Shown here in pieces: positions 32,901 through 55,189 of a stretch of 64,000 bases of DNA. The notes beneath the pieces are model-generated. The model did not search any database, was not told the origin of the DNA, and saw only the letters and a list, made by a program, of their open reading frames with translations. The stretch's first letter is position 1. Each line of letters starts with the position of its first letter. Made by a program: the position numbers and the translations under genes. Source of the DNA: Polynucleobacter sp. (GTDB taxonomy: Bacteria; Pseudomonadota; Gammaproteobacteria; Burkholderiales; Burkholderiaceae_D); contig JAIPCX010000009.1 in assembly GCA_021737945.1 (NCBI GenBank), forward strand, positions 1 through 64,000. The letters are read 5' to 3'.

Positions 32901-35900
32901 TTCTCACTGCTAACAACGGACGATTTAGTCGCGATTGAAACAGCTGATATTTCTAGCCTGACTACAGCGCAACTGCGTACACTGGGTTCCGCTTCAGTGA
33001 GCGTATTGTCGGTTGAGCAGATCGCTAAAGTAACAACAGCGCAAGTTTCTGGCCTTACAACGGCAGCATTGCAGGGATTGACCACTGCGGGCGCATCAAC
33101 ATTGACAGCGGCGCAAGTAGGAGTAATGTCAACCGCGCAGTTCATCTACATGACCAGCGCTCAAGGTAACGCGTTGGGTACAGCGGCAATAGCTGGATTG
33201 ACTACGGCCCAAATGTCGGCTTTCTTATTAAATACAACCTCAACGATTGCTTTAGCTACGGCTCAATTTTCGTCGATTACAACAGCCAACATGGCTTTGT
33301 TCAGTACGTTGAACTTGACGAACATGACAACGGCGCCGTTGAATTCGCTGACTAATTACGGCACGAATCAGGTAGCTGCAATCAATACCTTTGCAATGTC
33401 GGCCATTAGTAGCGGTGCCATGAACACCATGACTACCGCGCAAGTGGGTACTTTATCTACAGCACAAGTTGCAGTGCTGAATACTGCAGCGATCAGCTTC
33501 GGTGTAACAACAGCCCAATTGGCATCGTTGTCTGCAACACAAGTAGCTAACTTGTCTACCGCAACTATCGCTACCCTGGCTTCGAACCAAGTTGCAGGTA
33601 TCGAAACAGCTGACATTGGTAGCTTGACTACCCGTCAACTCGCTGCGTTGACAACAGCAACAGCGCTGGGCTTGACCACAGACCAAATCGTTAACCTGAC
33701 CACGGATCAATTCGGCGCCCTCAAAACAGCGCAAATGATCGCGTTGACTACAGCACAAATCCGCGCATTAGAAACGCGTGATGTGGCTGCTTTGTCCACA
33801 GCTCAGATCGTCGCATTTAGTTCCGGTCAAATGGTGCTGGGCTTGAGTACTGCTCAACTGGGTGTGCTCTCAGCGTCGCAAATCGCAGTAATCACTACCG
33901 ACGACATCAGTGTTATGACGACTACTCAGTTCGCTGGCTTCTCGGCAGCGCAAGTGGGCTCGTTGGTAACTGCAGAAATCAACGTGATGGCTTCAGCGCA
34001 GATCGGTGCCTTGGCAACATCTGCAATCAGCAGCCTGACAACAGCAGCGATGACATTCATCTCAACTGATTCGCTCAAGGGCCTGACAACAGACCAAGTG
34101 GTCGCCTTGAATACGACGCAGATTGGTTCGATCACCACAGCGCAAGTAACCTTCCTGACCTCAGCGCAAATCGGCGCGATCGAAACAGCCGATATCGTTG
34201 GTTTGGAAACAAGAGACATCGCAGCACTCACGTCTAACCAGGTTGCTGGTCTGACCACATCGCAGTTCGTGGGCATGGCAGCAGGTCAAATCTCGGCAAT
34301 CACTACCGATGACATCAACCTATCGTTCACCACACTTCAGGTCGCAGGTTTGTCAGCTGCTCAAGTAGCTAGCTTGTCGACAGCGCAGTTTTCAGCGATG
34401 ACGTCGTCGCAGTTCCGTGCAATCGAAACAATCGACTTCTCCAGCCTGACCACAGCGCAGATCAGCACATTTAGCTCGTTCGCACTCGCTAACTTAGTTA
34501 CAGACCAGTTAAGGGTGATGACAACGGCGCAGATCGCTAGCTTGGGTACAGCAGTAGTAAGTGCATTGACTTCGGATGAAGCGGTTGCACTGTCAACGGC
34601 TCAGCTGTCGTCATTAACCACTGCACAAGTTGTTGCTATTGGTTCATATCCAATCTCGTGGTTCAACACAGCTAATATGTCTAGCCTGACTACTGCTCAA
34701 ATCGGGGTGTTGACTACACAGCAAATTAACAATCTGACCACCGAGCAAATTGCTCAGTTAAGCGCAACACAGGCAGGTGTGATTACTACTGTCCAAACCA
34801 CAGGTATTACAAGTCGTGAAGTGTCAGTAATGAACACTGCTCAGATTTCCGCGCTTACAACAGCTGCAATAAGCGCTGTGTCAAGCTACGGTATCTCGGG
34901 CATTACAACCACTCAGGTTGGTGGAATAAATACTGCTCAGATCGGCGCCTTGACCACGTATCAGTTCAGCCTTGTCAACACTGCGCAATTCGCTGCATTA
35001 GGTACCGCTCAGATGAGTGTCCTGTCGACAGCGGCTATCACAGTCATTGATTCGGTAGACTTTGCAGCCTTGTCTTCCGCGCAGATTAGTGCGCTAAGTG
35101 TTGGTGCAATCGCAGCGATGACCACACAGCAAGTGTTTGGTTTGAGTAGTGACATCATTGGCCTTACAACAGCCCAAATCGTTGCCTTAACCACTGCAGC
35201 AGCAGCTAACTTGACGACTGATCAGTTCAACCAGTTCGGTACTGCTCAAATCGCAGCATTTGAAACTCGCGATCTGATACAAATTGCCTCAGCCGCAATC
35301 ACTGTGTTGGAAAGCGTGCAGTTCGGCGTTTTGAACACTGCACAAGTGGCAATATTGACTACACAACAAGTGTTTAGCATTAGTAGTGCTGAAGTTGTTG
35401 GCTTAACAACTGATGCCATCGTAACATTGAGTACAGCGCAGTTTGCTGGCATGTCAACTAATCAGTTCTTAAGCCTGACTACTGCGCAGCTGGCCGCAAT
35501 CGAAACACGCGATTTGGTTCAAGTCCTAAGTAGCGGTATTGCTGGTTTAACTAGCTCGCAGTTGTCCGTGCTGACTACAGATCAAGTTTCGCGCTTGACG
35601 TCTATTCAAGTTTCAGCAATTGAAAGCGCTGATATAGTTGGCATGACGACAGCTCAGTTGGCATCCCTAACGACTGTTAACGTCAGTGGGATTGCAACGC
35701 AAAATATCCAGAATTTGACGACAGCTCAGATCTCTGGCTTCAGCACTACAGCCATCGCTGGAATGTTGGTGAGTCAGATTGCTGCGATCGAATCAATCGA
35801 TGCTGCCAAGTTAACTACTGACCAGTTGGTAGCATTGACTACAGCTCAGTTCTCCGCTGTTGTGTCTCAGGCTATCTATGGTTTCACAACGAATCAGATA

Positions 35901-38900
35901 ACAGCAATAGAAACACGTGATCTGGTGGTGTTGGGTTCAGAGAACGTCAACTTTATGAATAGCGTTCAGATTGCTGCATTAACGACAACACAGATTGCAA
36001 TAATGACTAGCCAGCAACTGTCAGCTATTAATAGTGATGATGTTCGCGGCTTCACTACTGATCAATTGGGTGCCTTGTTAACAACGCAAATCTACGGTCT
36101 GGCAAGTCAGAACATAGACAACTTATCTTCAGCGCAAGTGAGTGGTTTTTCAACGCTATTTATTGCTGCATTGACAACGGATCAGTTGAATGCGATTAGC
36201 TCAGAAGATATTAAGGGTCTGACAACTACGCAAATTATTGCATTGACTACGACTCAAGTTGCTGCATTGGATTCTCAGTCATTGGGCGGATTGTTAACTA
36301 ACCAGTGGGCAGCATTTGAAACCCGTGATGTTGCAGCTTTGACGTCTGATCAGTTCACCCTTGGTGCATCTTCGGTTCAGTTGGCAGCCTTGACTACCGA
36401 TCAGATAGTTGCAATGACATCCCAGCAGCTATCAGGATTGTCAGCAGTTCAAGTTTCTGGATTGACTACAAATCAAGTTTCGGCGATCGAAACTCGTGAT
36501 TTGATTTTTGGATTCGCATCTAACCAGATAACTGCATTGGGTTCAGCTCAAGTTATTGCATTAACTACTGATACTGTTAGTAGGTTTAACTCTCTGCAGC
36601 TGCAAGGTATTGACAGCATCGATCTTTCGGTAATGACAACTAACCAGATTGCAGTGCTGTCCACCGCAGCTGCGGCTTACATTACATCGGTTCAGGTTGA
36701 TGCTTTAACGACCGCGCAAGTTAGCGTACTTTCTGCAAACACTATTGATTTGTGGACTACTGCTCAAGTGTCGATGCTGGCTAGCGCTGAGATGGTTGCG
36801 CTTACTACTGCATCCATGGCCGTCTTTGATTCGTTGCAACTTCTGGCTGTTTCAAGCGATGAGATATCAGTTTTGACAACGGCGCAGATTGCTTCTATAT
36901 CAACTGCTGCAATGGCGTACATAAATTCAACCCAGGTCGACGGATTGACGACAGCACAAGTTGCTGTGTTGTCTGCAAACACTATCGATTTATTGACTTC
37001 TGCCCAGGTGTCGATGTTGACTAGTGCTGAAATGCTTGCGTTGACTACGGCACAATTGGCGGTGTTTGATTCGCTGCAACTCTTGGCTGTGACAAGCGAT
37101 GAATTGGCGGTGTTGACAACGGCTCAGATTGCTTCGATACCTACTGCAGCAATGGGTTACCTCGTATCATTCCAAGTCGATGCATTGACAACGGCACAAA
37201 TTTCCGCGCTGTCTGCGAACACAATCGACTTGTGGTCTACGCAAAACATCTCGGTTTTACTTAGCTCCGAGATGATTGCGCTGACTACAGCTCAGCTAGC
37301 GGTATTTGATTCAATGCAGCTCTTGGCTGTTACCAGCGATGAATTGGCGGTCTTGACGACTGCCCAGATCGCTTCGATATCGACTGCTGCACTGGGTTAT
37401 ATTGTCTCAACTCAGGTTGATGGATTGTCTGCAGCTCAATTAGCGGTGGTGTCGGCGAACACGATCGACTTGTGGACTTCACAAAACATTTCAGTGTTGA
37501 CAAGTACTGATATGGCTTCAATGACTACAGCTCAGTTTGCGGTATTTGATTCATTGCAACTCTTAGCTATCTCAAGTCTTACATTATCGACTTTGACCAC
37601 GGCCCAGATTGCCGCGATACCTACTGCTGCAATGGGTTACCTGACTTCAATCCAAGTCGACGGTTTAACTGCGACCCAAATTGCAGTACTGTCAGCAAAC
37701 ACAATTGACATGTTTGATTCAGTAACTATATCGATGTTGTTGAGTTCCGAAATGGTTGCTCTAACAACAGCGCAGTTAGCAGTATTTGATTCATTGCAAC
37801 TCCAGGCGGTCGCTAGTGATGAACTGACGGTCTTGACGACTGCCCAGATCGCTGCGATACCTACTGCTGCACTGGGTTATATTGTCTCAACTCAGGTTGA
37901 TGGATTGTCTGCAACTCAATTAGCGGTGGTGTCGGCGAACACGATCGACTTGTGGACTTCACAAAACATTTCAGTTTTGACAAGTACTGATATGGCTTCA
38001 ATGACTACAGCTCAGTTTGCGGTATTTGATTCATTGCAACTCTTAGCTATCTCAAGTCTTACATTATCGACTTTGACCACGGCCCAGGTTGCTGCTTTAC
38101 CGACCGCTGCAATGGGTTATCTGAGTTCTACGCAGGTTGATGGTTTAACTTCTTCGCAGGTTGCTGTCCTGTCAGCGAACACTATTGATTTGTGGACAAG
38201 TAACAATGTGTCTATGTTGACAAGTGTAGAGCTTGCTGTACTGACAACGGCTCAGATTGCAGTATTTGATTCGTTGCAGCTCCAGTCGCTGACAAGTACT
38301 GAGTTGAGCTATCTGACTACATTCCAAGTTAGTGCGTTGACTTCATCAGTCTTCCAGAACCTAACTTCTGTTACGTTAACTGGATTGGGATCAGCTCAGA
38401 TTGCTGCATTAGGTGACCAGTACGGTAACTTGTCTTCAACTGCTCTCGATTACATTTTCAGTCAACAGATCAGGGCGCTTGGATTACAAAGTGCTTTAAC
38501 TAAATGGGGCTTTGTCACTCCAGTTGTATTAGATCTGGACGGTAACGGCATCCAAACCACAACCGCTGAAAACGGCGTAACTTTCGACATCAATAACGAT
38601 GGCAAGGCTGACCAGACAGCATGGGTTGCACGTGGTGATGGCTTGCTAGTCCGTGACATCAACAAAGACGGTCAGATCAACAACGGTAGTGAGTTGTTCG
38701 GTTCGGCAACGTCCTTGGGTAAGGGTATGACAGCAGCGGATGGTTACGTAGCGATGCGTGCCTTGGATACCAATAACGATGGTGTCTTGGATGCAAACGA
38801 TGCAGCCTTCGGTGAGTTAATGGTCTGGACTGATATCGATGGTAACGGTATTACTGGTTCTAACGAGTTGACTAACTTGTCTGATCTGGGAATCAACTCG

Positions 38901-39347
38901 ATCTCCTTGAATGCGACTAAGTCGACACAGACCAACAACGGTAACTTGATTGGATTGATGGGTAGCTACACAACGACCGATGGCAAAACACATACCATGG
39001 GCGACGTGTGGTTCCAGACCGATGCAGCAGGTGATCGCGTGTTTGATCTGGCGGCCATCGCTAAAGCAGCGGGCACATCGAAGGTTGATATGTCCAACGC
39101 ACAAGCCGATACGCTGAAAGTGACTCTGGCTGATGTCTTGGCAGTGGGCACACCGGATATCCTGAGCGGCACCTCAACGGTGACCATCACGGGTGATTCG
39201 GGAGACGTGGTCCAACTGACAGGTTCGGCTGGTGCAGGATGGAGCTTGGCTGGAACGCAGACCGATGGAGCAGATACCTACATGGTCTACGTGAACCAGA
39301 ATGCTCACCTGATGGTTAACGACAAGATTCACCTGATCATTAACTAA
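29931..39347 (+). CDS. Giant octapeptide-repeat surface protein, type I secreted
   Basis: A 3138-residue protein with no Sec signal and, on reading the whole translation, no cysteine. Residues from about 10 to 2850 are some 350 octapeptide repeats with consensus near A-L-T-T-A-Q-I/V-A, occasionally stretched to nine residues, punctuated by acidic octads such as AIETRDVA. The last part of the array (36631-38310) is seven copies of an 80-residue unit. From residue 2868 a calcium-binding module follows, with EF-hand-like loops DLDGNGIQ, DINNDGKAD, DINKDGQIN, DTNNDGVLD and DIDGNGITG. The final about 75 residues (VTLADVLAVGTPDILSG to HLMVNDKIHLIIN) resemble C-terminal type I secretion regions. The next gene, 10 bases on, is a type I ABC exporter. 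I infer an S-layer-like or adhesive surface protein; the exact family is unknown to me. Confidence 0.85.
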   Translation: MATTSTSISNLTQALITALTTADIVDLTAVQAGTFSATQASYLSATQIAAFENDDIAKLTLSNLSASQVAGITKDQSPVLSAAQVAAIGASAISGMVTAAFSTLTTTQTVALTTAQIAGLSATQMGVMTEDQLGKITAAQIARVPVASLQAMSTAQISFLNTASVSGLTTAQVKGIYTNQIGALDTRIVAALTTAQITALSNDNIAAGLSTAQIVSMAATQIASLATAQLSKFTTLQMLALETTDLNALTTAQVIALATDQTRALATNQVAALNTKQVNTLATKNIYTLTTDQVAALTTVQVLGLATSQIAAFETHQVAAISDADIAILTTAQVSAFETKDIAGGLVTSQIAALLTSQIAAMSTAQVTRLTTIQVQTLAAADIAAMSTAQVASLGTDHFVAMTTDQVAAITTLGVVNLQTADVAALTTSSIVALSSSQVAVLTTAGLGVLSTAQTAAIETRDIAVLNTAQIAALRTFNVSTLTTDQLVALTTSQISSVTTAALISIATANISAIDAADVARMTTAQIAALTTNQAAAMSTAQFAALTTVQISRVTTADLAQFGTDDVAVLASSQIANLTTAQITSMSSTQVSNFVDSGISSLNTLQIASLATTQMSGLTTSQIVALSTAQVASVSTLNISLLQTSQIASIETRDVAQLTTRQIQSLGSAQINVMSTAQVGALKTAQVRAIETVDVNGFSTAQMVALSTAQVTALATSQLLLLNTLQISAMETRDVAAMGTAQISRISSLQLSSMTTDQLNSLSTLSLSVLQTAATSGMTTAQVSAFTTTQVRALTTIQIATFGSAQYAALPTASLSLFGTAQLATVTTANIAGLTTDQIAALSATQVANLTTSQLNAMSTSQIRAIETADFTSLTTRQIASLSTDDVVALRTNQISLLNTAQIGLLATNGIANLTTDQLVALSATQFANLATKQIVTLASNQVAAIETADIGSVTTAGISTITTAAIVGLTTAQMVAMTAAQLSALKTAQFSLLTTDDLVAIETADISSLTTAQLRTLGSASVSVLSVEQIAKVTTAQVSGLTTAALQGLTTAGASTLTAAQVGVMSTAQFIYMTSAQGNALGTAAIAGLTTAQMSAFLLNTTSTIALATAQFSSITTANMALFSTLNLTNMTTAPLNSLTNYGTNQVAAINTFAMSAISSGAMNTMTTAQVGTLSTAQVAVLNTAAISFGVTTAQLASLSATQVANLSTATIATLASNQVAGIETADIGSLTTRQLAALTTATALGLTTDQIVNLTTDQFGALKTAQMIALTTAQIRALETRDVAALSTAQIVAFSSGQMVLGLSTAQLGVLSASQIAVITTDDISVMTTTQFAGFSAAQVGSLVTAEINVMASAQIGALATSAISSLTTAAMTFISTDSLKGLTTDQVVALNTTQIGSITTAQVTFLTSAQIGAIETADIVGLETRDIAALTSNQVAGLTTSQFVGMAAGQISAITTDDINLSFTTLQVAGLSAAQVASLSTAQFSAMTSSQFRAIETIDFSSLTTAQISTFSSFALANLVTDQLRVMTTAQIASLGTAVVSALTSDEAVALSTAQLSSLTTAQVVAIGSYPISWFNTANMSSLTTAQIGVLTTQQINNLTTEQIAQLSATQAGVITTVQTTGITSREVSVMNTAQISALTTAAISAVSSYGISGITTTQVGGINTAQIGALTTYQFSLVNTAQFAALGTAQMSVLSTAAITVIDSVDFAALSSAQISALSVGAIAAMTTQQVFGLSSDIIGLTTAQIVALTTAAAANLTTDQFNQFGTAQIAAFETRDLIQIASAAITVLESVQFGVLNTAQVAILTTQQVFSISSAEVVGLTTDAIVTLSTAQFAGMSTNQFLSLTTAQLAAIETRDLVQVLSSGIAGLTSSQLSVLTTDQVSRLTSIQVSAIESADIVGMTTAQLASLTTVNVSGIATQNIQNLTTAQISGFSTTAIAGMLVSQIAAIESIDAAKLTTDQLVALTTAQFSAVVSQAIYGFTTNQITAIETRDLVVLGSENVNFMNSVQIAALTTTQIAIMTSQQLSAINSDDVRGFTTDQLGALLTTQIYGLASQNIDNLSSAQVSGFSTLFIAALTTDQLNAISSEDIKGLTTTQIIALTTTQVAALDSQSLGGLLTNQWAAFETRDVAALTSDQFTLGASSVQLAALTTDQIVAMTSQQLSGLSAVQVSGLTTNQVSAIETRDLIFGFASNQITALGSAQVIALTTDTVSRFNSLQLQGIDSIDLSVMTTNQIAVLSTAAAAYITSVQVDALTTAQVSVLSANTIDLWTTAQVSMLASAEMVALTTASMAVFDSLQLLAVSSDEISVLTTAQIASISTAAMAYINSTQVDGLTTAQVAVLSANTIDLLTSAQVSMLTSAEMLALTTAQLAVFDSLQLLAVTSDELAVLTTAQIASIPTAAMGYLVSFQVDALTTAQISALSANTIDLWSTQNISVLLSSEMIALTTAQLAVFDSMQLLAVTSDELAVLTTAQIASISTAALGYIVSTQVDGLSAAQLAVVSANTIDLWTSQNISVLTSTDMASMTTAQFAVFDSLQLLAISSLTLSTLTTAQIAAIPTAAMGYLTSIQVDGLTATQIAVLSANTIDMFDSVTISMLLSSEMVALTTAQLAVFDSLQLQAVASDELTVLTTAQIAAIPTAALGYIVSTQVDGLSATQLAVVSANTIDLWTSQNISVLTSTDMASMTTAQFAVFDSLQLLAISSLTLSTLTTAQVAALPTAAMGYLSSTQVDGLTSSQVAVLSANTIDLWTSNNVSMLTSVELAVLTTAQIAVFDSLQLQSLTSTELSYLTTFQVSALTSSVFQNLTSVTLTGLGSAQIAALGDQYGNLSSTALDYIFSQQIRALGLQSALTKWGFVTPVVLDLDGNGIQTTTAENGVTFDINNDGKADQTAWVARGDGLLVRDINKDGQINNGSELFGSATSLGKGMTAADGYVAMRALDTNNDGVLDANDAAFGELMVWTDIDGNGITGSNELTNLSDLGINSISLNATKSTQTNNGNLIGLMGSYTTTDGKTHTMGDVWFQTDAAGDRVFDLAAIAKAAGTSKVDMSNAQADTLKVTLADVLAVGTPDILSGTSTVTITGDSGDVVQLTGSAGAGWSLAGTQTDGADTYMVYVNQNAHLMVNDKIHLIIN
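36631..38310 (+). repeat. Seven tandem 240-bp super-repeats within the giant gene
   Basis: The unit is 80 residues (ten octads) and exactly 240 bp. Units start at 36631, 36871, 37111, 37351, 37591, 37831 and 38071, each marked by the motif SANTIDL and later FDSLQL. Units 4 and 6 are nearly identical: 37383-37607 and 37863-38087 differ at only two of 225 positions, while adjacent units diverge more. This points to recent recombination or gene conversion within the array. Confidence 0.92.
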
Positions 39348-39357: not shown

Positions 39358-41559
39358 ATGAATCACCCTGGCGGCTCTCGCTTTGAAGCGAGGCCGGCAG
39401 AAACGGATAGTCTGTTGCAAACCCTACTTGGGGTTTGCAACAGATACGGAGTCCAGAAGTCAGCTGCCTCATTTTTGGCAGGTTTACCGAGTACAGAACG
39501 GCTGTCTGTAGAGCACGGAACTCGTGCAATGCATGCGGCCGGTTTTGCTGTAAAACTGGTTAAACGCGATCCATCCACTCTGCCTAATGAATTACTGCCT
39601 GCTGTATTATTAAACAAAGACGGTACGGCTTTCACGCTACTCAGCATCGACCATGGCCGCTCTGGCCCACGCTTTGAAATTCATGAAGCGGGACCGTCGG
39701 AACAAATAAAAGTGATGACCTTGGCTGAACTACGCCAGCATCATGGTGGTCATTGCATGCTGATCAAACAGCTTCCCAAAGCAGGCGAAGCCGGCGGAGA
39801 AGACGAAAAAGAAGAAGTCGGTTCGAAATGGCTGTGGCAAGCCGTTTGGCGCTACCGCCGTTATTACTACGACAGTATTCTTGCGGCAGTACTTATCAAC
39901 GTGTTGTCCACGTTTGCTGGATTGTTCGCAATCCATGTCTACGACCGCGTAATTCCATTAAAAGCGTATTCCACATTGTGGACTTTAGTGGTCGGTGTAG
40001 TTATTGCTTTGTTGTTCGAAGCAGCCACCCGACAAATACGTGATTACCTAATGGATTTGGCGGCTCGTAAAGCTGATATCACTCTTTCGACCACATTGTT
40101 TCGACAAGCGCTCGGTTTGCGTTTAGAAAACGCACCGCCGAACTCAGGCGCGTTTGCCCATCAAGTGCGGCAATTTGAAACCGTAAGAGATTTTGGTACA
40201 TCGGCCTGTATGGGCATCGTGACCGACTTGCCGTTTGGTTTGCTATTCATTTCTATGATCTTCATAGTGGCTGGACAACTTGCGATAGTGCCGTTGGTTG
40301 GCATTATGGTATCGATGCTGTTTGCGTTGTTAACGCAGCCCGCTCTGTATCGTTATATGTTGCTCACCTACCGTGATCAGGCACAGATGATGGGCGTGCT
40401 GATCGAATCAATCGAAGGTATTGAGACTCTCCGCGTTACAGGTGCATCCGGCATCATGACCAAGCGTTATGAAGATTTAGCCGCTACATCGGCGTTTTCA
40501 GGTATGCGGTTCCGCATCTTGTCCAATATCGTTGGCACATTAGCCAGCATGATCCAACAAGCGCAAAACATTATTTTGTTGGTGTGGGGCGTTTACCTGA
40601 TTCACTCGGGAGAAATTACCACCGGTGCGCTAGTAGGTAGCATTATGTTTGCCGGTCGTGCAACGGCACCATTCATGCAATTCATCGGTTTGGCCACGCA
40701 ATGGCAAAGCGCTAAAACAGCGATGGATGGCCTAAACACGTTAATGAATGCACCGCAAGAGCGAGATCCAGCGCGCTCGTATTTGCAAAAACCAACCATG
40801 GATGGCCGCATTGAGGTGAGTAAGTTGGGCTTTGCGTACCCATCCACCGGTAGCCACACTGCGCCGATCGCACTCAAAGATGTCAGTCTAAAAATTGATG
40901 AAGGCGAGCGCGTGGCCTTCGTCGGAAAAATCGGTAGTGGCAAATCAACGCTGTTGCGAATGATCGCTGGCTTGTATTTGCCTATCGAAGGCCAAGTCAA
41001 AATGGATGGCATCGATATACGCCAGATTGACCCCGTTGATTTTCGAAATCAAATTGGCTATGTGACGCAAGATCTCAGATTATTCCGCGGCACGTTAAGA
41101 GAAAACATTTTCTTAGGTCGACCAGCAGCAACGATGGAAGCGTTTTTAGAAGTGGTCGCATTGACTGGTTTAGATAAAATCGCCGACGCCCATCCGATGG
41201 GATTTGATATGCCGATTCTGGCGGGGGGTATTGGTTTGTCGGGTGGTCAGCGTCAGTTAGTGGCGTTGGCACGCGCTTTGGTAACCAGTCCTAAGGTATT
41301 ACTGATGGATGAACCAACCAGTGCGATGGACATGCAATCCGAGGCCCAATTTACTCAACGACTGGATGCCATCGTTAACAACCGTACTGTCATTATCGTG
41401 ACTCACCGTCCGTCATTGTTAAAAGTAGTGGATCGTATTGTGGTGATGGATAACGCTCGCTTAGTGGCTGACGGCCCTAAAGAAAAAATTCTAGCGATGT
41501 TGTCCGGATCAACGGCGATTAGCCAAGAAGGCACGGCACTGGAGCGGGGAGAGCATTAA
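39358..41559 (+). CDS. Type I secretion ABC transporter with degenerate C39-like domain (LapB/HlyB-type)
   Basis: A 733-residue exporter. The N-terminal about 140 residues resemble a C39-like domain, but no cysteine appears at the catalytic position (NRYGVQKSAASFLAGLP), so it should bind rather than cut the substrate. The membrane domain (about 165-460) and ATPase follow: Walker A GKIGSGKSTLL, signature LSGGQRQLVALARA, Walker B VLLMDEPTSAMD, H-loop VTHRPS. It begins 10 bases after the giant gene, so it is the natural exporter for it. It overlaps the HlyD gene by one base. Confidence 0.92.
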   Translation: MNHPGGSRFEARPAETDSLLQTLLGVCNRYGVQKSAASFLAGLPSTERLSVEHGTRAMHAAGFAVKLVKRDPSTLPNELLPAVLLNKDGTAFTLLSIDHGRSGPRFEIHEAGPSEQIKVMTLAELRQHHGGHCMLIKQLPKAGEAGGEDEKEEVGSKWLWQAVWRYRRYYYDSILAAVLINVLSTFAGLFAIHVYDRVIPLKAYSTLWTLVVGVVIALLFEAATRQIRDYLMDLAARKADITLSTTLFRQALGLRLENAPPNSGAFAHQVRQFETVRDFGTSACMGIVTDLPFGLLFISMIFIVAGQLAIVPLVGIMVSMLFALLTQPALYRYMLLTYRDQAQMMGVLIESIEGIETLRVTGASGIMTKRYEDLAATSAFSGMRFRILSNIVGTLASMIQQAQNIILLVWGVYLIHSGEITTGALVGSIMFAGRATAPFMQFIGLATQWQSAKTAMDGLNTLMNAPQERDPARSYLQKPTMDGRIEVSKLGFAYPSTGSHTAPIALKDVSLKIDEGERVAFVGKIGSGKSTLLRMIAGLYLPIEGQVKMDGIDIRQIDPVDFRNQIGYVTQDLRLFRGTLRENIFLGRPAATMEAFLEVVALTGLDKIADAHPMGFDMPILAGGIGLSGGQRQLVALARALVTSPKVLLMDEPTSAMDMQSEAQFTQRLDAIVNNRTVIIVTHRPSLLKVVDRIVVMDNARLVADGPKEKILAMLSGSTAISQEGTALERGEH

Positions 41560-42842
41560 TGAAACCCAAATCCCTGCACGACCTCGACAAAATTTCGCCG
41601 TGGTATGTTGATTTTGCCTTTTGGCGTAAATGGAAAAAACGCATCAGCGGCTCCGATCTTGAGTACATGGATAACGTCAGCGAGGCGTTGTTAGCGCAAT
41701 CGACTCCTGCATCGTCTGCATTTTTGTATTTAATGATTGCGCTCACTGTGATTGCCGTGACTTGGGCGAGCACTTCCAAAGTAGATGAAGTCACACAAGC
41801 CGAAGCTAGAGTAATAACGTCTAACCGTGATCAGGTCGTTAACAGTTTAGAGGGCGGTCTACTTGCTGCCATGCTGGTCTCAGAAGGTGACACAGTCACT
41901 AAAGGACAAGCCATCGTTCAACTTGAACCAACACGGTTTGAGAGTCAGTACGCGGAAGGTATGTCAAAGCAAATAGCGCTGAAAGCTGCTTTATCAAGAG
42001 CCCGATCTGAGGCACTGAATCAGACATTAAGTTTTCCGCCCGAGGTACTCGCTTATCGAGCCATCGTAGAAAACGAAACGCGCAACCACTTGGCGAAGAA
42101 AAAAATGATGGATGAATCGGTGGTGTCTTTACGCAAAAGCGTGGACATGATTTCGAATGAAATTCAAATTTCGCAAAAGCTGTCAGAGCAGGGTTTGTTT
42201 TCGGTTGTGGAATTATCGCGCTTACGTCGCCAAGAAAACGATCTCAACCAGCAAATTACAGAGCGCTTAAATAAATTTCGTGCAGACGCTAATGCTGAAG
42301 TAGTGCGTATTGAGAACGAGCTCTCACAATTAAAACCAAATCTAAATGCGCGTCGTGACACCTACGATCGTACAACCTTACGCGCACCGGTTAATGGCAT
42401 AGTAAAAAACATACGCATGACTACTCTGGGCGCGGCAGTACCAGGCGGCGCGCCAATATTAGATATTGTTCCTGTCGATGCTAAACTGTTGCTAGATGCA
42501 CGCCTAGATCCAAAAGACATCTCTTACATAAAACAGGGATTGCCAGTAACTATAAAAATGGCCGCATTTGACACAGCCATTTATGGTGAATTAAAAGGCA
42601 GCGTGGTGTTGATCAGTCCAGATACATTTAGGGAAGATGCACGGAGCGCGGATGGCCAATCGGCTGCGTACTACCGCGTGTTGATTGAGAGCGAAATCGA
42701 TAAAAATGATCCTCGTCAAAAAAAGATGGTGATTATTCCTGGGATGACCGCCACCGCGCAAATTAAGACAGGTGCTAAAACCGTTATGCAGTATTTGATC
42801 AAACCGATCTACAAAGCAAAAGAAGCGTTCCGCGAACGTTAA
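41559..42842 (+). CDS. HlyD-family periplasmic adaptor (type I secretion, second set)
   Basis: A 427-residue membrane fusion protein with one membrane helix (AFLYLMIALTVIAVTWAST), a lipoyl half (DQVVNSLEGGLLAAMLVSEGDTV), a long coiled-coil hairpin and the APVNGIVKNIRMTTLGAAVPGG half-motif. The C-terminal beta-barrel ends in ITAQIKTGAKTVMQYLI-like sequence typical of LapC and HlyD. The start shares one base with the stop of the ABC gene (TAATG). It couples the LapB-type exporter to the TolC-like protein that follows. Confidence 0.92.
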   Translation: MKPKSLHDLDKISPWYVDFAFWRKWKKRISGSDLEYMDNVSEALLAQSTPASSAFLYLMIALTVIAVTWASTSKVDEVTQAEARVITSNRDQVVNSLEGGLLAAMLVSEGDTVTKGQAIVQLEPTRFESQYAEGMSKQIALKAALSRARSEALNQTLSFPPEVLAYRAIVENETRNHLAKKKMMDESVVSLRKSVDMISNEIQISQKLSEQGLFSVVELSRLRRQENDLNQQITERLNKFRADANAEVVRIENELSQLKPNLNARRDTYDRTTLRAPVNGIVKNIRMTTLGAAVPGGAPILDIVPVDAKLLLDARLDPKDISYIKQGLPVTIKMAAFDTAIYGELKGSVVLISPDTFREDARSADGQSAAYYRVLIESEIDKNDPRQKKMVIIPGMTATAQIKTGAKTVMQYLIKPIYKAKEAFRER

Positions 42843-42867: not shown

Positions 42868-44259
42868 ATGAAAACATTCAAGCGTACCGCGTGGTTAGCA
42901 GCATTCATATCAACAGCTTTGTTGTCGCCCTTGGCAACGAACGCTGCAAGCACCGACGACAAAGCCGATGCTGCACCAATGCAGATGACAGATTATCTGC
43001 AATTAAAAAGGTTTAAGGAGATTCCTTCTGCAGGCCGCATAGTCGAATCGAATTTACGCCAAAAAGAAATCATTATTGCTGCCTTAAACTACAGCCCTAC
43101 AGGGCGTGAAGTACTTGCTAGCTTATTGGCAGCAGGACTCGATACCACCGCAGCAAAAGGTGCCAAGTTACCTCAAGTAACTGCAACGGTTCAATCGGCA
43201 ATGACTGAAGGCGATCTTCCGATGGCATCAAAGAATCGCGGAAGCCCTGGCGCTACCTTTCAAGCGTCCTATGTTGTGTACGACTGGGGCCGACTAGATG
43301 CAAATGTAAGAGTTCGTAAAGAAGCAGAAAATTCACTTAGCGCTCGTCAAAATTTGGTAGCACGTCAAGTGGCTTTGGATGCCGTAACCACCTGCCTAGA
43401 GCTAAGCAAACAGCGAGCGCTACTAACCGCGAATATCGATTATGTCGATAAGATCAAAGATTTAGTAAGGCGATTAAATCGAGTAGTTGAATCAGACCCC
43501 GGCCGTGCCGGTGAACTAGTGCAAACAAAATCAAGAATGCTGCAAGCGGATTCATCGATAGAAACGGTCCGCACCAAAGTAACTGAAATTAAGTATCGTT
43601 TAGACCGAATACTCGGATCGAATCAATCGCACCAATGCGATGGTCTTGGACCCAGCCTATTGAATGCGCCTGATCGAAACGATGTACTCGACAGTTTAAA
43701 AATTCATCCGCAAGTCCGAATTGTAGAAGCGGATTATCGACTAAATTTAAACCTTGTCGATCAACTAGCCGCAACACGTAAACCACAAGCCTCGGTCATT
43801 GCAGCGCATGCGCCGGTGTCTTTGGGATTTACGCAAGACTATGCACAATCTGTTACGTTATCCGTAACAGCACCTCTGTATGATGGCAATACACTTAAAT
43901 CATCAGAGCGAGCTTCACTAGAACGCGCCAACGCAGCTCTCGAAAGAAAAGAAGAAACCCTTCGCCAGCTCACCGATGACGTAAAGCAGCGCCATTCACA
44001 AGCCGTGCGTAACTTGGCGCGCGCTGAAGAATATGTCAGCCTGCTAGAGATCAACAAAAAAGTTCGTGATGATTTTTTTGTGCAATGGGTTTCGTTAGGC
44101 CGTCGTTCTTTATTTGAATTGCTAGCCATTGAAGCGGAACAATTTTCTTTAGACACCGGTTATTTCACTACGCTATACGACGGCATGATTGGCGTGGCCT
44201 TTCTGCGCACGACTGCGGGTGAATTGACTATGGATACATTTACGACGAATACACCATGA
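42868..44259 (+). CDS. TolC-family outer membrane protein (type I secretion, second set)
   Basis: A 463-residue outer membrane factor with a signal peptide (WLAAFISTALLSPLATNAAS). The TolC-like coiled coils include ARQVALDAVTTCLELSKQRALL and ERASLERANAALERKEETLRQL, and the VYDWGRLDANV and APLYDGNTLKSS motifs are typical of the outer strands. It completes an ABC-HlyD-TolC triad. It overlaps the GT41 gene by 4 bases (ATGA), linking secretion and glycosylation in one transcript. Confidence 0.88.
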   Translation: MKTFKRTAWLAAFISTALLSPLATNAASTDDKADAAPMQMTDYLQLKRFKEIPSAGRIVESNLRQKEIIIAALNYSPTGREVLASLLAAGLDTTAAKGAKLPQVTATVQSAMTEGDLPMASKNRGSPGATFQASYVVYDWGRLDANVRVRKEAENSLSARQNLVARQVALDAVTTCLELSKQRALLTANIDYVDKIKDLVRRLNRVVESDPGRAGELVQTKSRMLQADSSIETVRTKVTEIKYRLDRILGSNQSHQCDGLGPSLLNAPDRNDVLDSLKIHPQVRIVEADYRLNLNLVDQLAATRKPQASVIAAHAPVSLGFTQDYAQSVTLSVTAPLYDGNTLKSSERASLERANAALERKEETLRQLTDDVKQRHSQAVRNLARAEEYVSLLEINKKVRDDFFVQWVSLGRRSLFELLAIEAEQFSLDTGYFTTLYDGMIGVAFLRTTAGELTMDTFTTNTP

Positions 44260-46151
44260 GCACCAAAGCCAAGGCTAAAAAACATACACCAAACGCCGTT
44301 GCCGCTGCGCCTGAACAAAACTGGTTAGCGACACTAGGACAGATTAAAAGCGATAAGTTTTCTATCGATCAGATTATTCAGTTAGCCGATACTTTGCTGA
44401 AAGCAGGTAAACAGGACCTAACCGATATCGCGTATCAAACATGGATAGCGAGCTCGACCTCGCCGATGAAATTTGTCGCCGCGTTTAATTACGGTGTGAT
44501 GCTGGCGAATTGGAATCGAACCGATGATGCGATTCGTTATTACAACCTCGCTGTACAAATAAATCCTAGCTTTGGTCACCCGCGTATCAATCTTGGCTTA
44601 GCCTTTGAGCGGCAAAACAAACAAGAAGAAGCAGTCGCCCAATGGCAGCTCATCGAAGCAGATCCAGTAATTAAAGCGGCGGCACCGATAGAGATTCGCA
44701 CGACTGCGTTAAATCACATTGGACGTTTACGTGAGATTCAGCGAAATTTCGTTGCCGCGGAAGTGGCGTTGACAGAGAGTTTGTCGATAAATCCGAACCA
44801 AAAAGACGCTCTACATCACTGGTTTCATTTACGCCAAAAGCAATGCGACTGGCCAGTGCTAAAAGAATTTGCTGAAGTTACTAAAAATAGAATAGTGACT
44901 TCCATGTCACCGCTAGCGTGCTTAGCGCATGATGATGACTTGGGTTTTCAGATGTTTATTGGTGAGCGTATCGTGCGTGAAAAATTCACCTTTAACCATC
45001 AGCCTATGGCCGAGCGTAAAAGCTATGGTCATCAGAAAATCCGAATTGGTTATCTCTCAGGGGATTTGTGTACACATGCCATCGGCCTGATCATGCCTGA
45101 GCTGTTTGAATTGCATGATCGCTCACGGTATGAAGTGTATTTATACGATTACGGTCGTGAAGATGGCACCGGCTTGCGCGCGCGTTACAAACAAAATATT
45201 GAAAATTTCGTATCCATTGCTGCGATGACTGATGTGCAGGCCGCCGCCAAAATCCGCATGGATGAGATTGATATCCTGATTGATTTGCATGGCCTCAGCT
45301 TAGGCATACGCGCTGAAATTCTTGCGTACAGGCCAGCGCCGATTCAAATGACGTATTTGGGTTACATCGGTACAACCATGTTGCCGTATGTTGATTACGT
45401 CATCACCGATGAATACAGTTTTACTGAGCCAATGGAACAGTACTACAGTGAAAAACCACTGAAGCTCAAGCATTGCTGTTTGCCGACCGATCGAAAAAAG
45501 CATGTCGACCCGACGCCAACCCGTGAAGAAGCGGGATTGCCTAGCGATAAATTCATTTTTGCGACATTCAACAATGCCTATAAGTTGAATGAAAAAATGT
45601 TTGGCACGTGGCTAAACATCATGAAGCGCGTGCCTAACAGCGTGTTATGGATTGTGGATGACAATCCGTGGGCAACGGCGAATATTCGTCGCTTCACACA
45701 ACAAAACGGCGTTGATCCAGCGCGGTTGATATTTACGCCGCGCGTCATGCCACCGGCCTACTTAGGTCGTATGCCCTTAGCGGATGTTTTCTTGGATAAC
45801 CATCCGTATAACGCCGGCTCAACCGCCAGCGATATTCTTTGGATGGGTGTGCCTATGGTGACCTTGTCGGGCAATACCTTTGTGTCGCGTATGGCAGGCA
45901 GCATGCTGCACTACGCAGGCCTTGATGAACTGATCGCTCACAATCACACCGACTATGAAAACCTCGCGGTGGCTTTATCTGCTGACCCTGAGCGTTTAGC
46001 GCGTATCAAAGCGCAGATGCTCAATCAACGTAATCCGGGTGGATCGTTCGATATGAGCCATTTCACCAAAGAGATGGAAAGAAATTACGAAGAGGCTTAT
46101 ACAAAAATAGCCACTTTCGAGATTCCGCATCATGAACTGGTAATGATCTGA
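44256..46151 (+). CDS. GT41 (O-GlcNAc-transferase/SPINDLY-like) glycosyltransferase with TPR domain
   Basis: A 631-residue cytoplasmic enzyme. The N-terminal half has TPR-like helices (AAFNYGVMLANWNRTDDAIR, RINLGLAFERQNKQEEAVAQ). The C-terminal half carries GT41 hallmarks: KIRIGYLSGDLCTHAIGL with the base histidine region, FATFNNAYKLNEKMF with the conserved lysine, RVPNSVLWIV, and the nucleotide-sugar site AGSTASDILWMGVPMVTLSG. GT41 enzymes add a sugar, usually GlcNAc, to Ser or Thr. The gene is translationally coupled to the tolC of the giant-protein exporter, so the Thr-rich octads are the likely acceptor. The donor sugar is not known. Confidence 0.9.
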   Translation: MSTKAKAKKHTPNAVAAAPEQNWLATLGQIKSDKFSIDQIIQLADTLLKAGKQDLTDIAYQTWIASSTSPMKFVAAFNYGVMLANWNRTDDAIRYYNLAVQINPSFGHPRINLGLAFERQNKQEEAVAQWQLIEADPVIKAAAPIEIRTTALNHIGRLREIQRNFVAAEVALTESLSINPNQKDALHHWFHLRQKQCDWPVLKEFAEVTKNRIVTSMSPLACLAHDDDLGFQMFIGERIVREKFTFNHQPMAERKSYGHQKIRIGYLSGDLCTHAIGLIMPELFELHDRSRYEVYLYDYGREDGTGLRARYKQNIENFVSIAAMTDVQAAAKIRMDEIDILIDLHGLSLGIRAEILAYRPAPIQMTYLGYIGTTMLPYVDYVITDEYSFTEPMEQYYSEKPLKLKHCCLPTDRKKHVDPTPTREEAGLPSDKFIFATFNNAYKLNEKMFGTWLNIMKRVPNSVLWIVDDNPWATANIRRFTQQNGVDPARLIFTPRVMPPAYLGRMPLADVFLDNHPYNAGSTASDILWMGVPMVTLSGNTFVSRMAGSMLHYAGLDELIAHNHTDYENLAVALSADPERLARIKAQMLNQRNPGGSFDMSHFTKEMERNYEEAYTKIATFEIPHHELVMI

Positions 46152-46153: not shown

Positions 46154-46978
46154 ATGGCTATTCATATTTACCAAATTTATTATGATCAAGCGACTAAGCA
46201 AGCGCTGGATCCGGGATTTATACCGCTAGATAACAGTAATACTGAGCGGCCTGATTGGTATGAGTTTTGGCCGATTCGCAAATTCTTAAAAGAAAACCAG
46301 CTACAAGAAGATTCTTGGTATGGTTTTTTGTCGCCTAAATTCGCGGGCAAAACAGGCTTTAACAGTAAGACCATCAAAGAGCTAATCACACAGTACGATC
46401 GTGTGATGGATGTGGCATTGTTTTCATCGACCTGGGATTTCATCGCGTATTACAAGAACTGCTTTGAGCAGGGCGAGGTTTGGCATGAAAACATCACGCA
46501 AGTCGCGCAGATGTTTTTTAACGTGGTGGGCTATGAAGTCAATTGTGCCGAGCTAGTAAACCACACGCAAAACTCCGTCACTAGTAATTACGTGATTGCT
46601 AAGCCGATTTACTGGCGCCGTTGGATGGATTTGGCAGACAAACTTTTCGCCGTATCGGAATCCAACACCCCCTTAGGTAACATATTGTCCGGGCAAACTA
46701 CTTACGGGCCGAAACTTTTACCGTTTAAAGTGTTCATACAAGAACGTTTGGCGCCGGTACTACTAGCGAATGAAAAATTCAAAGTGCTCTCGCCTGATCA
46801 AAGCCAGTATCGGCCACTGTTCAGTCACCTGTTCCATGAAAATCTGCGCACGCGTCGTACTTTGCAAACGCTTGATTTGTTAAAGGAGCGGTTCTGTGCC
46901 ACTGGAGATAGGCAGTATCTCGATACCTATAGCAAATTGAAGGCAGAAATCCCTATCAAGCCGACGCGCTTCCGTTAA
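46154..46978 (+). CDS. Uncharacterised protein of the glycosylation locus
   Basis: A 274-residue soluble protein that begins IYQIYYDQATKQALDPGFIP and contains WYEFWPIRKFL, WYGFLSPKFAGKTGF and a late SDQSQYRPLFSHLF-like region. It has no signal peptide and no motif I can assign. It starts two bases after the GT41 gene and therefore shares its transcript. Such proteins recur beside glycosyltransferases; a nucleotide-sugar or glycosyltransferase-like function is possible but unsupported by visible catalytic residues. Confidence 0.6.
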   Translation: MAIHIYQIYYDQATKQALDPGFIPLDNSNTERPDWYEFWPIRKFLKENQLQEDSWYGFLSPKFAGKTGFNSKTIKELITQYDRVMDVALFSSTWDFIAYYKNCFEQGEVWHENITQVAQMFFNVVGYEVNCAELVNHTQNSVTSNYVIAKPIYWRRWMDLADKLFAVSESNTPLGNILSGQTTYGPKLLPFKVFIQERLAPVLLANEKFKVLSPDQSQYRPLFSHLFHENLRTRRTLQTLDLLKERFCATGDRQYLDTYSKLKAEIPIKPTRFR

Positions 46979-47075: not shown

Positions 47076-47777
47076 ATGAAAAAGCTTAGCTTGATTTCGC
47101 ATTACTACAATTCGCACGACAAAGCGCAAGACCTGATCGACCATTTGGCGCAAGCCAAGCCCGAGACATTAGAATATCTCGAGTTAATCATTGTGGATGA
47201 TTGCTCGGATGAAGAGCGCATGCTGACCGCGCCTAACTTCAGCCTCAAGTATTTACGCATTATTGATGATATCCCTTGGAACCAATCCGGTGCGCGCAAC
47301 CTCGGGGCCTTGACGTCGGAAGGGAGCTGGCAATTATTTTTTGATATTGACCAGCGTATTTCTTACGAAGGATTAGATTATGTCGTAGAGCATTGCGAAG
47401 GTCTGGCCGACACCGTGATGCATTATTTTTTAGTGAATAATTTCATCGACAGTAATACCAATGAGCAGCTGACGGTTCATCCGAATACGTTTTTAGTCAA
47501 TGCGAACAAATTTCGTCTCAATGGTCTGTACGACGAAGACTTTGCAGGAAACTATGGCTATGAAGATCTGTACTTACCATATTTGTGGGAGCGTAATGGT
47601 GGGACACGCGCAATTATGGGTAATGAGTTTTACTTTACTGATCAGCACTTCAAAACAACAACTTTAAATCGCGATCTCGAACCGAACAAGATAATATCCA
47701 CCCGCAAATTAATGACTGGATTGCCGCGGCCTAAAAGCCTATTGCGCTTTGAGTGGAAAATTCAAAGCATGTCGTAA
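47076..47777 (+). CDS. GT2-family-like glycosyltransferase
   Basis: A 233-residue GT-A fold enzyme. The N-terminal Rossmann-like part reads LSLISHYYNSHDKAQDLIDH then LIIVDDCSDEERM; a probable metal-binding DxD-like motif is LFFDIDQRIS, and ARNLGALTS matches the GARN-type GT2 segment. The C-terminal GNYGYEDLYLPYLWER region resembles acceptor-binding loops of this family. It has no membrane anchor and probably adds a sugar on a cytoplasmic acceptor. Donor and acceptor are unknown. Confidence 0.82.
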   Translation: MKKLSLISHYYNSHDKAQDLIDHLAQAKPETLEYLELIIVDDCSDEERMLTAPNFSLKYLRIIDDIPWNQSGARNLGALTSEGSWQLFFDIDQRISYEGLDYVVEHCEGLADTVMHYFLVNNFIDSNTNEQLTVHPNTFLVNANKFRLNGLYDEDFAGNYGYEDLYLPYLWERNGGTRAIMGNEFYFTDQHFKTTTLNRDLEPNKIISTRKLMTGLPRPKSLLRFEWKIQSMS

Positions 47778-47849: not shown

Positions 47850-48809
47850 ATGACTATCGCCTCTATCTCTGGCATCAAAAATGAATCAGATGTCATCGAA
47901 TCCTTCGTGCGCCATAACGCCAAATTCATTGATGATTTTTATTTTATTGATGACTCGGCCGACAAAACGCCCGCGATATTGGCGCAGTTAGCGGGCGAAG
48001 GCTTTCGTATCTTTACGATTAAGTTTGACACGCGTGACTATCAGCATAGCAAGATCATGACGAATGCTACGCGCCACATCAATCAAGAGCGCAAGTACGA
48101 CTGGATTTTTTATCTCGACGCAGATGAGATTTTGTACTACCCGACCAAAGAGCAATTTCTGCAAACGCTGGCAGCTAATCAGCAGCATCAAGTCGGGGTA
48201 CTGCATCACTATGAAATGGCGGCCAATCAAACGCCGTATTTCAACTCGCTTAATCCGCTTAAAGATTGCTTTAATGTTAGAACGCTTCAGAGTCAGACGA
48301 ATAAGATTTTTATACGCGGCGACATGTTTGATAAAGTCATGATCGGCCCTGGCCAGCATGATGTACTGGCGCTCGATGGCAAACGCTGTGATTATTTTGA
48401 ATCGGGCATGCAGTTAGCGCATTTTCCAGTTCGCAGCGCATCGCAGTATGTGACGCGCACCATCATTATTTATACGAGTTTGCTCGCGAAGTTAAACAAA
48501 ATACCTGGCGAAGGCAATCACGCGATTCGTCAGTATGAATGGTTAAAGCAAAATGATTTTGTGGCGAGTGATGCCAAGGTCACCGAATGGGGCTTGCAGT
48601 TTGGCTTGGACGACAATACCCGCCATCAGTGCAAACTAACTGCTGATCGTCCAGTGCTTCTGGACGATATCGTGTGCAAGTACCACGAGCTGGCGCGCCG
48701 CAATGACACCTTATTACTTGGCTTAGAGCTTGAGCGCGTAGCAGGCTTGCTGAGTGACTTCCGACATAAAACCCATCAATCCGTTGAGCAACTGAAATCC
48801 CTGTTTTGA
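47850..48809 (+). CDS. GT2-type glycosyltransferase (Glyco_tranf_2_4-like)
   Basis: A 319-residue enzyme with N-terminal ISGIKNESDVIESFVRHNAK and DDFYFIDDSADKTP, typical of the Glyco_tranf_2_4 branch of GT2. The metal-binding motif is FYLDADEILYYP. The C-terminal portion (KVMIGPGQHDVL, LAHFPVRSASQY) fits the HxxP-like histidine segment of this branch. It lies 72 bases after the previous glycosyltransferase and on the same strand. Confidence 0.82.
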   Translation: MTIASISGIKNESDVIESFVRHNAKFIDDFYFIDDSADKTPAILAQLAGEGFRIFTIKFDTRDYQHSKIMTNATRHINQERKYDWIFYLDADEILYYPTKEQFLQTLAANQQHQVGVLHHYEMAANQTPYFNSLNPLKDCFNVRTLQSQTNKIFIRGDMFDKVMIGPGQHDVLALDGKRCDYFESGMQLAHFPVRSASQYVTRTIIIYTSLLAKLNKIPGEGNHAIRQYEWLKQNDFVASDAKVTEWGLQFGLDDNTRHQCKLTADRPVLLDDIVCKYHELARRNDTLLLGLELERVAGLLSDFRHKTHQSVEQLKSLF

Positions 48810-51837: not shown

Positions 51838-52856
51838 CAAACTCCACAGCAGCATCAAGCAAAGTGCTGAACATCGGCATTATTGGTTGTGGCCTGATCG
51901 GGCAAAAGCGTGCGGCAGCTTTAGGCGCAGGCGGTAAATTGGTAGCTTGTGCTGATACCAACTTAGCGCGAGCAGAATCACTCGCTAAAAAATTTAATGC
52001 CGAGGCTTACGACACTTGGCAGGCGCTGATAGCAAGAAAAGATATCGATGCCGTTGTTATCGCAACATTGCATGATTCATTAGCTGAGATAACGTTGGCG
52101 GCGGTTGAATCAGGCAAGCATGTGTTGGTAGAAAAGCCCGCTGCACGCAACCCAGCCGAACTAGAGCCAGTGATTGCCGCTGCAAAAAAGCTTAATCGCA
52201 AAGTACACGTAGGTTTTAATCATCGCTATCACCGCGCGCTGCAAAAAGCGAAAGAAATTATCGATAGCGGAGCCATCGGTGAATTGATGTTTATCCGCGC
52301 ACGCTACGGTCATGGTGCGCGCGTCGGCTACGATAAAGAGTGGCGTTCTGATCCCAAACTATCCGGTGGTGGTGAGCTGATTGATCAAGGACCACACGTG
52401 ATTGATTTGTCGCGTTGGTTTATGGGTGAATTTACGGAAGTCGACGGCTATGCGCATACTTATTACTGGGATATGCCTGTTGATGACAATGCCTTTCTCA
52501 CACTCAAGACAGCTAAAAAACAAGTCGCGTTTTTGCAAGTGTCCTGCACCGAATGGAAAAACACCTTTTCCATGGAAATCTATGGCAAAACCGGCAAGCT
52601 GGATCTTAACGGCTTGGGCGGTAGCTACGGAGTAGAGAGACTCACTTGGTACAAGATGCTGCCTGAAATGGGCCCGCCTGAAACCACTGCGTGGGAATAC
52701 CCCATGGGTGATAACTCATGGGCGTTAGAGATGGCTGAATTTTATGAAGATATCCACCTCAATCGCGATCCGGCAGCGGGTTTGAATGATGCCTTAGCAG
52801 CGTTGACCGTTATACAAAAAATTTACAAGGAGTCTGGTTATGATTTTAGTGCGTAG
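51834..52856 (+). CDS. Gfo/Idh/MocA-family oxidoreductase
   Basis: A 340-residue NAD(P)-dependent sugar oxidoreductase. The Rossmann motif is IGIIGCGLIGQKRAAAL near residue 14, and the cofactor/substrate motif VLVEKPAARNPAE lies near residue 100, with HVGFNHRYHRA following. Such enzymes oxidise or reduce ring hydroxyls of nucleotide sugars. It overlaps the SDR gene upstream and the GHMP kinase downstream (17 bases). With the SDR it may make a modified sugar. Confidence 0.9.
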   Translation: MTNSTAASSKVLNIGIIGCGLIGQKRAAALGAGGKLVACADTNLARAESLAKKFNAEAYDTWQALIARKDIDAVVIATLHDSLAEITLAAVESGKHVLVEKPAARNPAELEPVIAAAKKLNRKVHVGFNHRYHRALQKAKEIIDSGAIGELMFIRARYGHGARVGYDKEWRSDPKLSGGGELIDQGPHVIDLSRWFMGEFTEVDGYAHTYYWDMPVDDNAFLTLKTAKKQVAFLQVSCTEWKNTFSMEIYGKTGKLDLNGLGGSYGVERLTWYKMLPEMGPPETTAWEYPMGDNSWALEMAEFYEDIHLNRDPAAGLNDALAALTVIQKIYKESGYDFSA

Positions 52857-53823
52857 CCCATTGCGAATTTCATTGGGCGGTGGCGGCACGGATCTGCCTT
52901 CCTACTATCGCGACTATGAAGGCTTTTTAGTTTCAGCTGCCATCGACAAGTACGTGTACGTGAGTGTGATGCGGCCTTTTACTGAAGGTATCTATTTAAA
53001 GTATTCGCAGCTCGAGCATGTGAATCGTATTTCTGATGTTAAGCATCCGATTATTCGTGAAGCGCTCGACATCATGAAATTTAAAACACCGCAAATCGAA
53101 ATCACCACACTGGCAGATATACCTGCAGGTACAGGCTTGGGATCGTCAGGCAGTTTTACAACGGCCTTAATGAAGGCCTTGTATACGCACCGCAAACGTC
53201 ACATCCATCAAGAAGAGCTCGCTGAGTTAGCGTGTCATATTGAGATAGATCGTTTGGGTGAGCCTGTCGGCAAACAAGATCAATACATCGCAGCGTATGG
53301 TGGCGTGACGTGTTTAACGTTTCAAAAAAATGGCAAGGTCGTTGCAGAGCCGCTGGCGATGAGCATACCAACCATGCACGAGTTAGAAGATAACTTACTG
53401 TTATTTTTTACGGGGTTTTCAAGAAGTGCGAGTGGCATTTTGGCCGATCAAAACACGCGCTCGCAACAGCATGATGCAGAGATGCTAAAAAATCTGCATT
53501 ACGTCAAAGAGCTGGGCTTGCGCAGTAAGCAAGCACTTGAGGCGGGTGACACCACGCAGTTTGGTGAAATCATGCACGAGCATTGGGAACATAAAAAACG
53601 TCGTTCAGGTGGTATGAGTAACCCGCGCATTGATGAGTGGTATGACCTAGGAATGAAGCATGGCGCTATCGGTGGCAAGTTAGTAGGCGCGGGCGGTGGT
53701 GGATTCTTGATGTTTTTAGCGAAAGACCGAACTGAGCTGCGTAGAGCGATGACGATCGCAGGCCTAGAAGAAGTGCGCTTCAAGTTTGATTTTGAAGGCA
53801 CTAAGGTAGTGACTTCCTCGTGA
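52840..53823 (+). CDS. hddA: D-glycero-D-manno-heptose 7-phosphate kinase (GHMP kinase)
   Basis: A 327-residue GHMP kinase. The N-terminal PLRISLGGGGTDLPSYY and the ATP-binding loop PAGTGLGSSGSFTTAL (about residues 87-102) are clear, with the C-terminal KLVGAGGGGFLMF motif. This pattern is that of HddA, which makes heptose 1,7-bisphosphate from heptose 7-phosphate. The neighbours HddC, GmhA and GmhB complete the pathway, which supports the call. The alpha or beta anomer specificity cannot be read from sequence here. Confidence 0.88.
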   Translation: MILVRSPLRISLGGGGTDLPSYYRDYEGFLVSAAIDKYVYVSVMRPFTEGIYLKYSQLEHVNRISDVKHPIIREALDIMKFKTPQIEITTLADIPAGTGLGSSGSFTTALMKALYTHRKRHIHQEELAELACHIEIDRLGEPVGKQDQYIAAYGGVTCLTFQKNGKVVAEPLAMSIPTMHELEDNLLLFFTGFSRSASGILADQNTRSQQHDAEMLKNLHYVKELGLRSKQALEAGDTTQFGEIMHEHWEHKKRRSGGMSNPRIDEWYDLGMKHGAIGGKLVGAGGGGFLMFLAKDRTELRRAMTIAGLEEVRFKFDFEGTKVVTSS

Positions 53824-54524: not shown

Positions 54525-54556
54525 GTAGTAAATCAAGATCACGTCGGAGCGAAACC

Positions 54557-55168: not shown

Positions 55169-55189
55169 ACAAGAAGAGACAAACTCGAA

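Follow-up and report, generated by a model that had tools for sequence, protein, structure and literature searches.

The window, by which we mean the whole 64,000-nucleotide stretch of Polynucleobacter sp. DNA analysed here, contains a gene for a giant ALTTAQ octad-repeat protein of 3138 amino acids (29931–39347, + strand), the proposed substrate of the enzyme described below. The octad gene is encoded together with the components of a type I secretion system, namely a permease/ATPase of the LssB type (39358–41559, +; TIGR03375, 766 bits against a cut-off of 693), a HlyD-type periplasmic adaptor (41559–42842, +; TIGR01843, 276 bits, cut-off 209) and a TolC-like outer membrane factor (42868–44259, +; PF02321, 73.6 bits), and the octad protein is probably exported by this route. 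The gene that follows (44256–46151, +) starts with ATG and encodes a 631-amino acid GT41 glycosyltransferase with an N-terminal TPR domain. Its first 4 bases are shared with the end of tolC, and here the ORF coordinates agree with the overlap given in a preliminary description of the locus. Downstream lie a gene for a 274-amino acid partner protein (46154–46978, +), for which a Pfam search returned no confident family match, two further glycosyltransferase genes and a set of sugar-nucleotide genes. A second type I secretion set, consisting of a TolC-like protein, two ABC proteins and a HlyD-like protein, is located directly upstream of the octad gene (19523–28659). Between the two sets of secretion genes, on the opposite strand, lies a putative 2OG-Fe(II) oxygenase (28660–29241, −; PF13759), which could be a further modifier of a secreted protein.

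The ALTTAQ repeat model PF20080 matched 65 stretches of the octad protein with a total of 1068 bits (cut-off 26.4). A register search placed 347 complete octads with the consensus A-L-T-T-A-Q-I-A inside residues 18–2848, followed by an Asp-rich C-terminal region. The self-identity of the protein is 0.255 at a lag of 8 residues, while the remaining lags between 4 and 15 give 0.05–0.10, which bears out the fixed spacing of 8 residues noted earlier. Ser or Thr occupies position 3 in 218 octads (63%) and position 4 in 305. Both positions are Ser/Thr in just 185 of the 347 octads (53%), at odds with the idea of one Thr/Ser-Thr pair per repeat, and the several hundred TT or ST pairs initially assumed reduce to 143 (111 TT and 32 ST). 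At least one of the two positions is Ser/Thr in 338 octads (97%), indicating that a hydroxyl residue is on offer in nearly every repeat.

An AlphaFold model of a 240-amino acid stretch of 30 octads (window 31179–31898, model m442693886ebd; pLDDT 93.1, pTM 0.82) shows, nearly throughout, one helix of 5 or 6 residues per octad, starting mostly at position 4. Given this predicted helix start, we take position 3 to be the cap and position 4 to be the residue that opens the helix. With its single short helix, the modelled octad makes an alpha-solenoid unit of very small size. Among solved folds, mesothelin comes closest, and the match is so weak (E = 1e-3, TM about 0.4) that we claim no homology. 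Within the octad gene, tandem repeats of 240 bases (10 octads) and 480 bases, 68–84% matching, cover window positions 36725–38302, which suggests that the gene has grown by whole octad blocks.

The product of 44256–46151 is a GT41 member by fold, Pfam score and catalytic residues, with predicted enzymatic activity. It scores 268.8 bits against PF13844 (Glyco_transf_41; cut-off 25), and its AlphaFold model (mean pLDDT 87.5) shows a helical TPR part that extends to approximately residue 200, with the catalytic part behind it. The TPR domain proposed from the initial inspection is thus present, and TPR_1 and TPR_2 are the only TPR models above their Pfam cut-offs, several others matching below; at approximately residues 23–200, however, it accounts for a third of the protein rather than the half originally assigned to it. 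The closest solved structure is XcOGT (2jlb; E = 6e-35, TM 0.86 by target length), followed by human OGT and SPINDLY. The conserved histidine and lysine regions were correctly recognized: His274 and Lys443 align with His218 and Lys388 of XcOGT, and both are invariant across 28 relatives of the enzyme. The same holds for Asn78, Asn112 and Asn153, which occupy equivalent positions of successive TPRs and form an asparagine ladder. In SPINDLY, such a ladder binds the substrate backbone, and mutation of the ladder abolishes activity (PMC9715652). The H-T-T motif of XcOGT is replaced by G-S-T in the window enzyme, the G being kept in 28 of 28 relatives, which implies that the donor need not be UDP-GlcNAc. 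N-glycosylation of the HMW1C type was rejected, as the NGT model NF049992 reached only 22.2 bits against a cut-off of 1000 and the octad protein has only 31 N-x-S/T sequons.

The association between the octad gene and GT41 extends over many genomes. In the family of the window genome (196 genomes), ALTTAQ occurs in 29, all of which have a GT41 match. For the GT41 subgroup, defined by a score of at least 400 bits against the window enzyme, 25 of the 26 genomes that carry it also have ALTTAQ (Fisher p = 2e-26, relatedness not corrected for), the sole exception being genome G105. In the 4 ALTTAQ genomes with a GT41 below 400 bits, the two genes still lie side by side. Within the genus of the window genome, both genes are present in 6 genomes and neither in 4. 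Among 78 named relatives, which include Duganella, Pseudomonas, Cupriavidus, Paraburkholderia, Geomesophilobacter and a record labelled Syntrophobacteraceae, an ALTTAQ gene is found in 50 loci; in 40 of these it lies directly upstream of GT41, in the same orientation and no more than 500 bp away. The usual order is ALTTAQ followed by GT41, with a median gap of 168 bp. Some of the loci that have no local ALTTAQ gene are close to a contig edge. Five such loci with an exporter beside GT41 but no local ALTTAQ gene were checked, and in all 5 genomes ALTTAQ is present elsewhere. The two genes adjoin in Beta-, Gamma- and Alphaproteobacteria, and outside the window family the pair is separated by 84 bp in locus L184 and by 106 bp in L183. 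ALTTAQ genes are also seen near flagellin- or FlgL-like genes, at L042 (7164–17620), L080, L083 and L194 and on contig C45 of the window genome.

Of the GT41s from the same family that are more distant from the window enzyme, 0 of 12 lie beside ALTTAQ, vs 18 of 28 of its relatives (p = 1e-4). In a phylum sample, GT41 is present in 18 of 22 clear-ALTTAQ genomes, 16 of these 18 coming from one family, and in about a third of the rest. In a family designated f51, 26 of the 34 clear-ALTTAQ genomes have GT41 and 8 have none, indicating that the repeats can exist without the enzyme. In the GT41 tree, the ALTTAQ-linked enzymes do not form one clean clade (21 label changes vs 46.8 in shuffles) and the window GT41 sits on a long branch; we therefore make no fine evolutionary claim. 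A literature search, with most subscription journals outside its reach, yielded no mention of ALTTAQ and no published link of GT41 with ALTTAQ or type I secretion, and we found no published description of the GT41–ALTTAQ pairing.

Taken as genomic evidence, the conserved neighbourhood and the co-occurrence over many genera strongly support a role for this GT41 as an enzyme dedicated to the octad protein. Given their joint occurrence, the repeats are probably glycosylated by this enzyme before export. The adjacency would have a different meaning if GT41 glycosylated another surface protein, most likely flagellin, and the ALTTAQ gene were a neighbour owing to shared surface-structure clusters. 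FlmG of Caulobacter is a TPR-containing O-glycosyltransferase for flagellins (PMC7591256), Flagellin_N genes are present in the window genome, and flagellin-like genes occur in several related GT41 loci. We regard this explanation as unlikely: the Flagellin_N matches are on contigs other than that of GT41, the subgroup tracks ALTTAQ across genomes and has it in most of its loci, and a flagellin substrate does not explain why Ser/Thr is enriched at position 4 of the octads, as described below.

To identify the candidate acceptor, we compared octads from 30 of the 34 clear-ALTTAQ genomes of f51. The mean Ser/Thr fraction at position 4 is 0.77 in genomes with GT41 and 0.43 in those without (p = 4e-4; p = 0.003 at the genus level, where 4 GT41-less genera are set against 13). 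At position 3 the corresponding values are 0.79 and 0.77 (p = 0.66), and none of the remaining octad positions shows a difference comparable to that at position 4. Where GT41 is lacking, Ala or Pro is common at position 4; the ALTTAQ proteins at L182, L206, L211, L216, L217, L218 and L221, from genomes with no GT41 match, provide natural controls of this kind. The GT41-linked enrichment at position 4, with position 3 remaining flat, marks position 4 as the candidate acceptor and supports an action of the enzyme on octad Ser/Thr. Position 3 appears structural, as expected for a helix cap, because Ser/Thr is equally frequent there in genomes without GT41. Clade effects remain in the comparison, given that only 4 GT41-less genera enter it. 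The GC content is somewhat higher in the GT41-less f51 genomes, and higher GC favours Ala and Pro codons; position 4 is also the first helix residue in the model, where Ser/Thr is tolerated structurally as well. In L067–L069, which belong to the window genus and have the octad gene adjacent to GT41, Ser/Thr at position 4 amounts to just 32–48%, and in L183 to 37%.

These low values bear on a second explanation, according to which GT41 modifies the ALTTAQ protein outside the octads, in the N-terminal stretch or the C-terminal region, or at position 3. Position-3 Ser/Thr is present in well over half of the window octads and stays high in L067–L069 despite the low position 4. The independence of position 3 from GT41 and its place just before the helix in the model argue against it as the acceptor, and overall we assign this explanation a low likelihood. 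The TT pair as a motif was rejected on the pair counts together with the comparison of the two positions. For the original proposal that the enzyme modifies every octad at its TT or ST pair, the outcome is mixed. The pairing argues for dedication to the octad protein and the position-4 enrichment for action on Ser/Thr, but neither the extension to every octad nor the pair as target finds support, the pair being present in only about half of the octads and including a position that looks structural.

The genes downstream of GT41 may contribute to the same modification. Relatives of the 274-amino acid partner are fused to the C terminus of GT41 in L091 and L152 and follow it in L062, L080, L083, L108 and L145. 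Several GT41s of the Duganella type carry C-terminal GT2 and methyltransferase domains, and the GT41 ORFs at L047, L048, L053, L062 and L065 end in GT2 and/or methyltransferase domains, as though a single chain performed several steps of glycan building. Both observations hint at additional reactions on one glycan. The partner gene of the window is followed by a GT2-type glycosyltransferase (47076–47777, +; PF00535, 28.9 bits) and a Glyco_tranf_2_4 glycosyltransferase (47850–48809, +; PF13704, 54.3 bits), either of which might extend the glycan. Further on, a group of sugar-nucleotide genes identified by NCBIfam matches (52840–56433, +) resembles the D-glycero-D-manno-heptose pathway, comprising an HddA-like kinase, an HddC-like nucleotidyltransferase, a GmhA-like SIS protein, a GmhB-like HAD phosphatase and a transaldolase. 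Among these enzymes only the transaldolase passes its cut-off (TIGR02134, 331 bits), the others having the named models as best or near-best NCBIfam matches below cut-off; a match to the heptose kinase structure PDB 3k85 reaches 2.9e-53. The presence of this set near the GT41 operon suggests local synthesis of a nucleotide-activated heptose or a similar sugar, and since most of the scores are below the model cut-offs, we treat a heptose donor only as a lead.

Glycosyltransferase and sugar-nucleotide genes within about 1–14 kb downstream would also be expected if GT41 acted with the downstream glycosyltransferases in a polysaccharide or glycolipid pathway, the ALTTAQ neighbourhood being incidental. 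Against this, the ALTTAQ–GT41 pair is seen in many genera, in which the flanking genes vary, and the characterised GT41 enzymes have proteins as their substrates. A polysaccharide or glycolipid function is therefore very improbable.

The window genome encodes a single GT41, located within the exporter operon, and 5 further ALTTAQ proteins. Four of these have a C-terminal end like that of the window protein and Ser/Thr at position 4 in 79–93% of octads, and the fifth (1286 amino acids), with a different end, has 31%. As there is one GT41 in the genome, one enzyme would serve several unlinked paralogues, and the four with the same type of C terminus are probably modified by it.

Altogether, we favour the view, with a probability of roughly 0.7, that the window GT41 works in the cytoplasm as an O-glycosyltransferase dedicated to exported ALTTAQ solenoids, with octad position 4 as its main target. 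The order of events that we infer is as follows. In the cytoplasm, the TPR groove with its asparagine ladder would hold the ALTTAQ chain by its backbone soon after synthesis, before it folds, and the catalytic part would add a sugar to the octad Ser/Thr, mainly at position 4. The neighbouring glycosyltransferases and the 274-amino acid partner would probably extend or trim the glycan. The ABC–HlyD–TolC type I system of the operon would then export the modified chain, and the solenoid would fold outside the cell. A broader version, in which, as a general bacterial system, an OGT relative glycosylates position 4 in almost all repeats, so that approximately 300 regularly spaced O-glycans line a type-I-secreted solenoid of one-helix octads, with one enzyme for several unlinked repeat proteins, is a tentative extension that we find conceivable but short of probable. 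The favoured view, if true, would give a function to ALTTAQ, an uncharacterised and widespread repeat family, and would supply many OGT-related enzymes of bacteria, a large group, with a natural substrate. It would also link the O-glycosylation of proteins with type I secretion. The regular array of acceptors would also make a clean model for the action of an OGT-type TPR groove on repetitive substrates.

Several known systems share features with the window enzyme. XcOGT (XCC0866) and human OGT have the same fold, are the best structure and sequence matches and align in the catalytic His and Lys. The differences are an identity of about 30% or less, few TPRs, and the XcOGT motif H-T-T, which is G-S-T in the window enzyme. 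The protein O-fucosyltransferase SPINDLY shares the GT41 fold and the binding of substrate by an asparagine-ladder TPR domain (PMC9715652). In contrast to the window enzyme, it is a plant regulatory enzyme that uses GDP-fucose and has no secreted repeat substrate. HMW1C is a GT41 member that belongs with a giant secreted protein, the adhesin HMW1, and its secretion partner (PMC3983070), an arrangement similar to that proposed for the window enzyme. However, HMW1C N-glycosylates Asn sequons and operates with two-partner secretion, whereas the window GT41 has no match to the NGT model above cut-off. The autotransporter heptosyltransferase TibC belongs to an enzyme family other than GT41, and its substrate is an autotransporter. 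It resembles the proposed system in that, with TibA and AIDA-I, a dedicated enzyme hyperglycosylates an exported adhesin (PMC4358343). FlmG of Caulobacter crescentus is a soluble cytoplasmic enzyme whose TPR domain binds flagellin and whose C-terminal GT domain modifies it (PMC7591256). It has in common with the window enzyme the N-terminal TPR and C-terminal GT domains and, as proposed for the window enzyme, an exported protein as substrate. The two differ in that FlmG acts on flagellin, with flagellar export and pseudaminic acid as donor, whereas the window operon combines an octad protein with a type I exporter and its GT41 lacks a FlmG-type linkage to flagellin genes. By analogy, the window enzyme would work most like FlmG, and the logic of its operon would be that of HMW1C with HMW1, without the enzyme being of the HMW1C type.
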